Part shown: positions 29,389 through 33,075 of the stretch, piece by piece
Layout of the letters: each line of letters opens with the position of its first letter
How positions within the stretch are numbered: the stretch's first letter is position 1
Source of the DNA: Pseudomonadota bacterium
Lineage (GTDB): Bacteria; Pseudomonadota; Alphaproteobacteria; CADEGL01
Assembly (NCBI GenBank): GCA_027619995.1
Contig: JAQCGR010000007.1
Coordinates: 1 to 33,502 of the forward strand
Reading direction: 5' to 3'
Length of the DNA: 33,502 nucleotides
The notes under the pieces: generated by a model
The model's database searches: none
Told to the model about the DNA's origin: nothing
The model's input: only the letters and a program-made list of their open reading frames with translations
Made by a program: the position numbers and the translations under genes

Positions 29389-30894
29389 GTGAATCCCGAT
29401 TTCGACAGCTTCCGCGCCCAATACGACTCCGGCCGCGGGCAGCTTGTCTGGAACACCCTGATCGCGGATCTGGAAACGCCCGTCTCCGCCATGCTCAAGC
29501 TGGCGGACGGGCGGACCAACAGCTTCCTCTTCGAATCGGTCGAGGGCGGCGAGACCCGCGGGCGCTATTCCTTCCTGGGCATGAAGCCGGACCTGATCTG
29601 GCGCTGCCGGCGCGAGCGGTCGGAGATCAACCGCAAGGCCCGTATCGGCCCCGATACTTTCGAGCCCTGTGAGGGCCATCCGCTCGACGTCTTGCGCGCC
29701 CTCATCGCCGAATCCCGACTCGAGGTGCCGCCCGGCCTGCCGCCCATGGCCTCCGGCCTGTTCGGCTATATGGGCTACGACATGGTCCGGCTGGTGGAAA
29801 AGCTGCCCGATGACAACCCGGACGAGTTGGGCCTGCCCGATGCGATCTTCCTGCGCCCCACTGTCGTCGCCATCTTCGATCTGATCGAGGACCAGGTCTC
29901 GATCTGCACGCCGGTCTGGCCCGACCCGGCGATCGGCGCCCAGGCGGCCTACGATCTGGCCTGCGAACGGCTGGCCGATGCGATGGCCGATTTCGGCCGC
30001 AGCCTGCCCTATCGGCGCGAGGCCCCGTCCCGCACGGCGGAGCTGCCCGAGCCCGAATCGAACATGACCCAGCAGGAATTCGAGGGCATGGTCGAGCGCG
30101 CCAAGGAATATATCCGCGCCGGCGACGTCTTCCAGGTCGTCCCGTCCCAGCGCTTCCGCGTGCCATTCCGCCTGCCGCCCTTCGCGCTTTACCGCGCGCT
30201 GCGCCGGCTCAACCCCTCGCCTTTCCTGTTCTACATGGATTTCGGCGATTTCACGGTGGTCGGCTCAAGCCCGGAGATCATGGTCCGCTCGCGCGACGGC
30301 ATCGTCACGATCCGCCCCCTGGCCGGCACCCGCAAGCGCGGCGCGACCCCGGCCGAGGATCAGGCGCTGGAGGCCGAACTCCTGGCCGATCCCAAGGAGC
30401 GGGCCGAGCATCTGATGCTGCTCGATCTCGGCCGCAACGATGTCGGCCGTGTCGCCAAGATCGGCTCCGTGAAGGTGACCGCCCAATTCGAGATCGAGCG
30501 CTATTCCCACGTCATGCATATCAGCTCGAATGTCGAGGGCGAGTTGGACACCGCCAAGCACGACGCCCTCAGCGCCCTGACCGCCGGCTGCCCGGCCGGC
30601 ACTGTCTCGGGCGCGCCCAAGATCCGCGCCATGGAAATCATCGACGAGTTGGAGCCGACCCGGCGCGGCGTCTATGCCGGCACGGTCGGCTATTTCGGCG
30701 CCGACGGCTCGATGGATACCTGCATCGCGCTCCGCACCGCCGTCGTGAAGGACGGCGTGATGTATGTCCAGGCCGGCGGCGGCGTGGTCGCCGACAGCGA
30801 TCCCGAATCCGAATACCAGGAAACCCGCAGCAAGGCCCGCGCCCTCATCCGCGCCGCCGAGGAAGCGGTGCGTTTTGCCGCGCGGAGCGGTTAG
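29389..30894 (+). CDS. trpE: Anthranilate synthase component I
   Basis: 501 aa, GTG start; IRPLAGTRKRGATPAEDQALEAELLADPKERAEHLMLLDLGRNDVGRV, AGCPAGTVSGAPKIRAMEII; no fused TrpG domain. Confidence 0.95.
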   Translation: MNPDFDSFRAQYDSGRGQLVWNTLIADLETPVSAMLKLADGRTNSFLFESVEGGETRGRYSFLGMKPDLIWRCRRERSEINRKARIGPDTFEPCEGHPLDVLRALIAESRLEVPPGLPPMASGLFGYMGYDMVRLVEKLPDDNPDELGLPDAIFLRPTVVAIFDLIEDQVSICTPVWPDPAIGAQAAYDLACERLADAMADFGRSLPYRREAPSRTAELPEPESNMTQQEFEGMVERAKEYIRAGDVFQVVPSQRFRVPFRLPPFALYRALRRLNPSPFLFYMDFGDFTVVGSSPEIMVRSRDGIVTIRPLAGTRKRGATPAEDQALEAELLADPKERAEHLMLLDLGRNDVGRVAKIGSVKVTAQFEIERYSHVMHISSNVEGELDTAKHDALSALTAGCPAGTVSGAPKIRAMEIIDELEPTRRGVYAGTVGYFGADGSMDTCIALRTAVVKDGVMYVQAGGGVVADSDPESEYQETRSKARALIRAAEEAVRFAARSG

Positions 30895-31183: not shown

Positions 31184-32650
31184 TCAGATCCTTCCGTCGC
31201 CCCCGGCGGCGCCCTTGTTGTGGACGAGATAGCCGTCGGCGAAATAGGTGTGATCGCCGTCGAGCAGCAGGTTGTAGACCACCGTATCCGGATCGGCCCG
31301 GACACTCGCGATCGCTTCGATCCCAATATCCTGAGCGCGCCCGGGCGCGTAGGACACCGGCGTTAACCCCGAAATCACCGCCACCGCGACCCGGTCGCCC
31401 ACGGCCAGGGCGCCGACCCGCAGGCGTGGGTTCTCGCGCGCCGTGGCCGTCGGATCGATCGCCTTCCAGCCTTCGGCCGTCCAGAACGGGTGCTCCGCCG
31501 TCACAAAGGCCGGGCCGCCGTTGAAACCGTAAAGCAGCCGGCCGCCCAGACGGGGCCGTTCGATTCCGGTCACGGTGTTGATCGCGCCGTCCCGGCCCAG
31601 CACCCGGTCGCCGATCCGGACCTCCTCGATCCGCCTCTCGCCGCCGCCCGCCAGGGCCACCTTCGTGCCGGCGGCGAAACAGGAGTCCTGGCCGATATCC
31701 TCGATACCGCCATAGGACGCGCCGCCGCTACTCTTCCCGGCTTTCGCGGTCCGGGTTTTCTTGACCTCGGCGGCCCGCTTCTTGGCGTATTCGACCTCTC
31801 CCCGGTACTGGCGCGCCTCGTCCTCGGCGACATGAACCGGGTCGAGCAGCACCCCGGAGAACTTCCGGATCTCCTCCTGGTTGGCGAGCGCCCATTTCGC
31901 CAGTTCGAGCTGCGCCGCGGTCAACTCCCCCTTGGCCTTCGACGCCAGATAGCTTCCGTCGCTTCCGGTCCTGCCGAAATTCGACGACAGAAACGTCTTC
32001 AGATCGGTGATGGCCAGCAGGGCCTGGGCGGAGGAGAGGTTCACATCCGACATGAGGTCTTCGATCTTGTCGCTCACCGGCCCCCATTGCTGCCATTTGT
32101 CCATATCCAGACCGAGCCTTTTGGCATCGGCCTTGTGGGTCTCCACATGGCCGTCCTCGTGACGAACAGTGATCCGCCTGTCCTCCTCGGCCCAGGCCGC
32201 CTCCGCCTTGCCGGCGGGCTTCGACTTGGGTTTTGCCAATTCGACATTGCCGTATTGGTCCGTGGTGCCGGCGGTGACGGTGTTCGTCCAACCCTTGTTC
32301 TTCAGGGACGCGCTCACCCAGGTCCGCATCTCGCCAGGCCCGGTGGCGTCGACCGCCGCCTTCTCGGCCGCGCTGCGATCCTCCGGATTCTTGGTCAGCC
32401 CCTGCTTTCGGGTCTTGACGAAGGATTCGAAGCTATCGGCCGAATCCTCGCTGAATTTCTGCTGGGTCTTAAAGCGGGACAGCAATCCGTCGAATTCGGC
32501 GGTGCTCAAGTCGGCGAGATGGCTGTCATCCACCTTCGCGGCGGCCGTGTCCTGGCCGACGGCCGGTATGGCCATGACCGCAAGGATGAGCGCGGTCGCG
32601 ATGACAATTTGAAAACCGGGGAACCTCCCCGGATACGGCGCCATTGCCAT
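31184..32650 (-). CDS. Secreted protein of unknown N-terminal fold with C-terminal Hint (intein-like autoprocessing) domain
   Basis: Start chosen at ATG 32650 (SD-like AAGGGGG upstream; ORF extends to 32704). Signal-peptide-like MAMAPYPGRFPGFQIVIATALILAVMAIPAVGQD. C-terminal Hint: CFAAGTKVALAGGGERRIEEVRIGDRVLGRDG (block A), TAEHPFWTAEGW (block B), VYNLLLDGDHTYFADGYLVHN (blocks F/G). Confidence 0.85.
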   Translation of the reverse strand: MAMAPYPGRFPGFQIVIATALILAVMAIPAVGQDTAAAKVDDSHLADLSTAEFDGLLSRFKTQQKFSEDSADSFESFVKTRKQGLTKNPEDRSAAEKAAVDATGPGEMRTWVSASLKNKGWTNTVTAGTTDQYGNVELAKPKSKPAGKAEAAWAEEDRRITVRHEDGHVETHKADAKRLGLDMDKWQQWGPVSDKIEDLMSDVNLSSAQALLAITDLKTFLSSNFGRTGSDGSYLASKAKGELTAAQLELAKWALANQEEIRKFSGVLLDPVHVAEDEARQYRGEVEYAKKRAAEVKKTRTAKAGKSSGGASYGGIEDIGQDSCFAAGTKVALAGGGERRIEEVRIGDRVLGRDGAINTVTGIERPRLGGRLLYGFNGGPAFVTAEHPFWTAEGWKAIDPTATARENPRLRVGALAVGDRVAVAVISGLTPVSYAPGRAQDIGIEAIASVRADPDTVVYNLLLDGDHTYFADGYLVHNKGAAGGDGRI

Positions 32651-32824
32651 GATCGCGCCCCCTTTCGGATGGTTCGACGACAGCATCGCGCCTGCGCGCG
32701 GCACGGTTCTGCCCGACGACGCCGCAACATGATCGGTTATTCAGATCAAGGGGTCAAACTTTCGGATATCGGCGTCCCGGGCGGGCGGGCGTCGCGAAAA
32801 CCCGCATCCCAGGCCGCATTCCTT

Positions 32825-32864
32825 ACCCCCTGAAACGAAACGGCACCCCCTGAAACGAAACGGC
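32825..32864. repeat. Perfect 20-bp tandem direct repeat (2 copies)
   Basis: accccctgaaacgaaacggc at 32825-32844 and 32845-32864. Confidence 0.95.
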
Positions 32865-32883
32865 CCGTCGCAAGGACGGGCCG
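32861..32883 (-). terminator. Hairpin terminator downstream of the 40-aa peptide gene
   Basis: Perfect 9-bp stem cggcccgtc-gcaag-gacgggccg; on the minus strand it is followed by TTTCGTTTCAGG. Lies 26 bp past the peptide stop. Confidence 0.7.
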
Positions 32884-32908: not shown

Positions 32909-33031
32909 TTAGGTGCGTTCGACCTTGCAGATGGCGCAGGTGCTGAAACGTCCGCCGCCGGTGTGACGATCAAGCGCCTCGTCGGCCAGATTTTCGTCCT
33001 GCGCGGTCTCTAGAACCATGTTTTCGTTCAT
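32909..33031 (-). CDS. Short Cys-containing peptide with double-glycine-type leader; candidate RiPP/bacteriocin-like precursor
   Basis: 40 aa MNENMVLETAQDENLADEALDRHTGGGRFSTCAICKVERT from ATG 33031, preceded by GAGGAG with a 6-nt gap (GAGGAGacaattATG); leader ENLADEALDRHTGG resembles the LSxEEL...GG pattern; core RFSTCAICKVERT. Confidence 0.6.
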   Translation of the reverse strand: MNENMVLETAQDENLADEALDRHTGGGRFSTCAICKVERT

Positions 33032-33075
33032 AATTGTCTCCTCAAAATTAATTCCATCGCAGGCGAATAAACCAC

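Follow-up and report, generated by a model that had tools for sequence, protein, structure and literature searches.

A short open reading frame in 33,502 nucleotides of alphaproteobacterial DNA (the window, identical with contig C159 of its assembly) belongs, with a probability that we put at roughly 0.6, to a large family of azol(in)e-peptide precursors of the TOMM/LAP type with a cyanobactin-type heterocyclase, in which one enzyme set would serve dispersed precursors in trans. As far as can be judged from sequence, the gene is most likely a source of raw material for a library of modified peptides not described so far, because the precursors of relatives adjoin enzymes that make rings from cysteines in cyanobactin-type products.

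The precursor gene and its surroundings

The preliminary description of this DNA had reported a 40-residue open reading frame with a strong Shine-Dalgarno sequence and a downstream terminator, and the position, strand, start and stop codons of the frame were confirmed exactly, together with the GAGGAG motif and a GC hairpin followed by a T-rich tail (Table 1). An alternative upstream TTG would extend the frame to 61 residues, and the start is set at MNEN/MSEN instead because the family alignment fixes it there. The stem of the hairpin, a likely terminator, starts about 25 nt 3' of the stop codon; the stretch with stem and tail folds at -26.2 kcal/mol (z = -3.1), and it was not among the matches of a consensus terminator scan. 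Part of the hairpin start is overlapped by a direct repeat of 18-20 bp, CCCCCTGAAACGAAACGGC (window 32828-32867).

Table 1. Features of the precursor gene in the window
Feature	Position	Strand	Details or basis
RiPP-type precursor peptide gene, 40 aa, MNENMVLETAQDENLADEALDRHTGGGRFSTCAICKVERT	32909..33031	minus	ATG 33031, TAA 32909
Leader region MNENMVLETAQDENLADEALDR, with heterocyclase-recognition-like L(X)4L = L15-ADEA-L20	32966..33031	minus	family alignment, pN/pS, motif comparison
Putative core HTGGGRFSTCAICKVERT with CxxC; leader/core boundary putative	32912..32965	minus	composition, pN/pS, Cys spacing
Shine-Dalgarno GAGGAG, 6 nt before ATG	33038..33043	minus	sequence
9-bp GC hairpin, then T-rich tail, likely terminator	32861..32883	minus	sequence, folding

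Just downstream on the same strand lies a 506-residue open reading frame (31184-32704, minus) with a C-terminal Hint (hedgehog/intein-type) domain (PF05203, E = 4.3e-10), possibly a self-processing secreted protein. In addition, trpE is 2 kb away from the window copy (29389-30894, plus), and gaps of the trpG-trpD-trpC region hold precursor copies in the relatives LacPavin_0818_WC50_MAG_65_9 (G001; L083 4063-11215) and RBC064 (G002; L078 4906-13793).

A large family scattered over the genome

Homologues, which the preliminary description had proposed to look for in related genomes, form a family: at least 34 copies lie in the genome that the window comes from (G000), 55 in that of the sister species, and more in further Alphaproteobacteria. 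The 40-residue query gave 22 matches in its own genome, the best paralogue at E = 1.9e-8, and a profile built from 25 own-genome matches, with copies accepted at E <= 0.01, returned 34 copies there, 55 in the sister species SI072_bin169 (G004), 19 in RBC064 and six in LacPavin_0818_WC50_MAG_65_9, the last two being members of the window's GTDB family, and none in G003. Among 385 genomes sampled from the class, the other positives were the distant BS150m-G7 (G063), for which a reading of the loci brought the count to about 40 copies, and a genome with a single weak match; the assemblies of G000, G004 and G063 are incomplete. A degenerate-DNA scan of the genome collection brought further copies in Reyranella/Enhydrobacter-type and other alphaproteobacterial MAGs. 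The motif scan of viral contigs gave mostly chance matches and one real precursor copy, the Reyranella-type MTELEMKTEAEVEDFTDELSDEALDRAEGAFASSHSSGS on a contig filed as viral (L183, IMGVR_UViG_3300044655_003528, about 25-144, plus).

The copies are scattered genome-wide, single or in tandem, many of them with a hairpin at their 3' side, and copies lie near contig ends in 9 of 19 contigs against 4.7 expected (p ~ 0.02). Neither NCBIfam nor Pfam holds a family covering the own-genome copies, and NCBIfam holds none covering those precursors of relatives that were tested; precursor genes of roughly 40 residues are thus missed by current family models. A search of the PDB with precursor sequences gave nothing meaningful, and the literature searched does not describe the family. 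The open reading frame is a real gene, far beyond chance, because of the E value of its best paralogue, the 34 profile copies and a coding-type pattern of synonymous and nonsynonymous change throughout the family.

A constrained leader and a hypervariable core

Across 167 distinct precursor copies, a common acidic leader closes with L-x-D-E-A-L-D-R and is followed by a hypervariable, Cys-enriched stretch with a mean length of 20 residues. Cysteine accounts for 10.1% of the core residues, 0.2% of those in the leader and 3.4 +/- 0.2% of those in nucleotide-shuffled cores, and with 10.5% Ser, 6.6% Thr and 14.4% Gly the copies show the Cys/Ser/Thr/Gly-rich core after a conserved leader that marks TOMM/LAP precursors. 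At least one cysteine is present in 93% of the cores and none in 7%; C-x-C and C-x-x-C spacings are enriched, and adjacent CC is depleted. A Shine-Dalgarno-like motif precedes 81% of the own-genome copies and 81-86% of the copies across G000/G004.

A selection test across homologues, likewise suggested in the preliminary description, revealed protein-level constraint in the leader and none in the core (pN/pS ~1.0 just after DEALDR). For the own-genus copies, pN/pS is 0.15 over DEALDR versus 0.92-1.0 over the next eight codons, the absolute leader value being biased because the copies were detected through their leader motif, a procedure that also favours intact frames. Synonymous differences between these copies are near saturation. 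Purifying selection acts on the leader but not on the core, and near-saturated synonymous change beneath a fixed amino-acid motif is the signature of translated sequence.

Within the leader, 161 of the 167 copies have L(X)4L, and all 167 have hydrophobic residues at its two positions; the copies had been filtered for the second leucine but not for the first. In the window copy the motif is L-ADEA-L (LADEAL), and this copy so carries the leader motif of TOMM/LAP precursors. The PatE leader binds the RRE of LynD as a beta-strand spanning L(X)4L, in which both leucines matter, and Val or Phe rescues the equivalent leucine mutants in MprE7 (PMC12455567). The PatE chains of the LynD entries 4v1t and 4v1u contain LAELSEEAL, and members of the family in BS150m-G7 read LAELSDEAL. 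The conserved element of the family is L(X)4L inside LxDEALDR, a heterocyclase-recognition-like motif, and not GG. The motif scan also matched a lanthipeptide-like short open reading frame of Hyalangium versicolor, ELTDEALDSLISGGASEQLDSCCWSSC (L234, 6148-6348, plus), so LxDEALD is also found in GG-type leaders elsewhere.

Heterocyclase loci in relatives and a proposed pathway

In relatives, precursors flank a conserved locus whose enzymes are a TruD/LynD-type fused TOMM heterocyclase, an oxidase of the SagB/ThcOx type and an M1 aminopeptidase (PepN). The locus and its precursors were found in RBC064 (L153), in the Reyranella-type contigs L197, L203, L212 and L255, and in L204, so that a YcaO (SagD-type) cyclodehydratase is encoded with homologous precursors in RBC064 and in Reyranella-type loci. 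In L203, from an uncultured Reyranella, a precursor is followed on one strand by the fused heterocyclase, then SagB and then PepN. For TIGR03604 and TIGR03882, the fused proteins at L153, L203 and L204 score above the curated cut-offs, and the L153 and L204 oxidases do so for TIGR03605. Moreover, the L204 heterocyclase can be aligned over the full length with TruD (E = 2.5e-142) and LynD (1e-136), its N-terminal winged-helix (leader-binding) region alone reaches 6e-17 against TruD/LynD, and the locus oxidase aligns with CyaGox (E = 4e-42). A cyclic-peptide-export ABC transporter and an SPFH protein are present at two loci (L153 and L206), and AurF-like and DUF697 proteins recur at the heterocyclase loci. 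Twelve other alphaproteobacterial genomes encode more distant fused or split enzymes, and in the eleven of them that were read (33-41% identical) no leader copy lies within about 1.5 kb of the enzyme.

A pathway can be proposed from the family, its selection pattern, the cysteine enrichment, the enzyme loci beside homologous precursors and the match to the leader motif bound by LynD, and each of its biochemical steps is deduced rather than observed. The acidic leader would be bound via L(X)4L (LxDEALDR) by the RRE of the fused TruD/LynD-type YcaO heterocyclase, which would cyclodehydrate Cys, and possibly Ser/Thr, of the core to azolines, and the SagB/ThcOx-type dehydrogenase would oxidise these to azoles. 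The M1 aminopeptidase would probably trim the leader, and the cyclic-peptide-type ABC transporter beside two of the loci may export the product. A single set of this kind would act in trans on precursors dispersed by the dozen.

The missing maturase and alternative explanations

The fused heterocyclase was not found in G000, in its sister G004, in G001 or in G063, though all of them carry precursor copies. The single stand-alone YcaO of the window's genome (C418) scores 189.7 bits against a TOMM cut-off of 219.25, stands in a non-RiPP neighbourhood and was rejected as maturase. LanC (PF05147) is absent from all six genomes, and no SPASM radical SAM, MNIO or PqqD protein found in the searches tracks the precursor family. 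The SPASM matches of BS150m-G7 resemble PqqE, NirJ and similar proteins, and a locus of PqqD, HprK and T1SS genes in G000, G004 and G002 was not taken as maturase because it resembles the HPr-rel-A/exopolysaccharide type. An ABC match on contig C343 of the sister species proved to be a tat locus. CaiB, ornithine cyclodeaminase and SDR genes, the recurrent neighbours in an all-against-all BLAST of the first five genomes, were likewise set aside, as they resemble ordinary conserved metabolic clusters; tandem ornithine-cyclodeaminase-like and CaiB/acyl-CoA genes lie near precursors in several genomes of the family (L010 and L072; L085; L009 and L122), probably through shared synteny. The PepN of the island was sought in the other five genomes, and this search, which had no positive control, gave no match. 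In BS150m-G7, PqqD-like and HprK-like genes stand beside two near-identical short open reading frames (L268, G063:C20, 15776-17762, minus) of the form MSxESNKTPKSDGLSRRDALARLGLAATVAYAAPTLLQLKG..., which resemble a second, unrelated small-peptide system.

Genomic islands are often lost from metagenome bins, and yet four independent losses of the heterocyclase are awkward for an account by loss or incomplete bins. There is good support for placing the window copy in a TOMM-associated precursor family; a heterocyclase acting on this copy we only infer, because its own assembly yielded no fused heterocyclase.

These absences fit an unlikely alternative, in which the peptides are a true RiPP family matured, in the window's lineage and in BS150m-G7, by a different enzyme class that has adopted the leader, the TOMM association being confined to RBC064 and the Reyranella-type genomes. 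The fused enzyme is missing in four of the five whole genomes with the family, and constrained leaders, Shine-Dalgarno sequences and Cys-rich cores persist where it is missing, but searches for LANC, SPASM, YcaO, MNIO, PqqD and C39 yielded no maturase-like family that tracks the precursors, and L(X)4L is kept in every lineage.

It is less probable still that the copies are relics, or repeats that multiplied, after the loss of a maturase island and are now mostly functionless. Such an origin would suit the missing island-type genes in four genomes, the scattered and tandem copies, and the RBC064 heterocyclase locus near tRNA-Ser, an island-like placement given that genomic islands often lie near tRNA genes. 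However, leader pN/pS is well below 1 with synonymous sites near-saturated, Shine-Dalgarno-like motifs are retained before the large majority of G000/G004 copies, and most frames are intact, even if detection favours intact copies.

It is highly improbable that the peptide is a bacteriocin of the double-glycine kind, be it class II, lantibiotic or Nif11-type, with export through a C39 ABC transporter, which is how the preliminary description had read the leader. The window copy does contain GG(G), and L-12 and L-7 relative to it match the general spacing of GG leaders. However, GG occurs within six residues of DEALDR in 30% of all copies and 38% of own-genome copies, too few for it to be the defining cleavage site. 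All C39 matches found belong to T1SS-type transporters in T1SS/HprK/exopolysaccharide surroundings, whose domains are apparently degenerate, the catalytic Cys position, read by eye, appearing as Gly or Ser. Against the comparison with lantibiotic and Nif11-type leaders stand the lack of the LanC-like cyclase of class I/II lanthipeptides and the Nif11/NHLP and other precursor models of NCBIfam and Pfam, for which no hit reached the cut-off (for Nif11 the lowest E was 0.15, in one relative). The double-glycine reading fails because GG is not a family feature and no C39 protease accompanies the family, and the family alignment already largely refutes it. What endures of the preliminary description is an unannotated RiPP-type precursor with a conserved leader, a hypervariable Cys-rich core and its own Shine-Dalgarno sequence and hairpin, along with the suggestion of trans-acting machinery.

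Small non-RiPP proteins, such as metal-binding or regulatory peptides, would account for the CxxC of the window copy and the enrichment of C-x-x-C in the cores, but are highly improbable given cores that are hypervariable in sequence and Cys number and close homologues that adjoin peptide-modifying enzymes.

Relation to known systems and biological meaning

The azol(in)e precursor family is best read as combining the workings of a cyanobactin-type azole system with a dispersed library like that of the prochlorosins (PMC4663559, PMC10783134). As in the cyanobactins (PatE/TruE; TruD/LynD; ThcOx/CyaGox), full-length homologues of the fused heterocyclase and the oxidase are present in relatives of the window copy, the leader LAELS[DE]EAL contains L(X)4L, and the cores are hypervariable (PMC4663559). 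In contrast to them, the present family is alphaproteobacterial rather than cyanobacterial, its precursors of about 40 residues bear one core and are dispersed genome-wide, and its loci hold an M1 aminopeptidase, no PatA/PatG protease or macrocyclase being recognised on reading of 8-20 kb heterocyclase loci; the family would accordingly be assigned by likeness to cyanobactins and not as a cyanobactin.

Prochlorosins and synechococsins (ProcA/ProcM) share with it a conserved leader, a hypervariable Cys-containing core and precursor genes that number in the dozens and stand alone or in tandem; up to 83 prochlorosin-type precursors per genome and 16 in a row are reported (PMC10783134). ProcM, however, is a LanM, whereas LanC is absent in the genomes here, the chemistry would be that of azol(in)es, and the leader does not resemble Nif11. 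In the Mpr azoline proteusin system (MprC, MprE1-10), one promiscuous YcaO cyclodehydratase serves ten precursors through L(X)4L recognition (PMC12455567), which resembles the motif and the one enzyme for many precursors proposed here, although the MprE leaders are long, folded NHLPs encoded in a cluster and the present ones are short and belong to dispersed genes. Cox et al. 2015 define TOMM groups by a cyclodehydratase and Cys/Ser/Thr/Gly-rich precursors, and their main text has ten uncharacterised groups with Reyranella and Alphaproteobacteria unmentioned (PMC4603692).

Somewhat short of even odds, we tentatively propose that Alphaproteobacteria have a system, not described before, in which a single heterocyclase of the cyanobactin type would act in trans on dozens of precursors set amid core metabolic genes, an azole counterpart of the prochlorosins, with some lineages keeping the constrained library after the known maturase has gone or been replaced. 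Dispersed libraries of one enzyme and many substrates are best known from LanM, in the prochlorosins, and their purpose is open. If the proposal is true, about 170 natural candidate heterocyclase substrates share one recognition motif, and a second dispersed library, based on azoles, would exist in freshwater, soil and marine Alphaproteobacteria and would provide an independent test of why such libraries exist.
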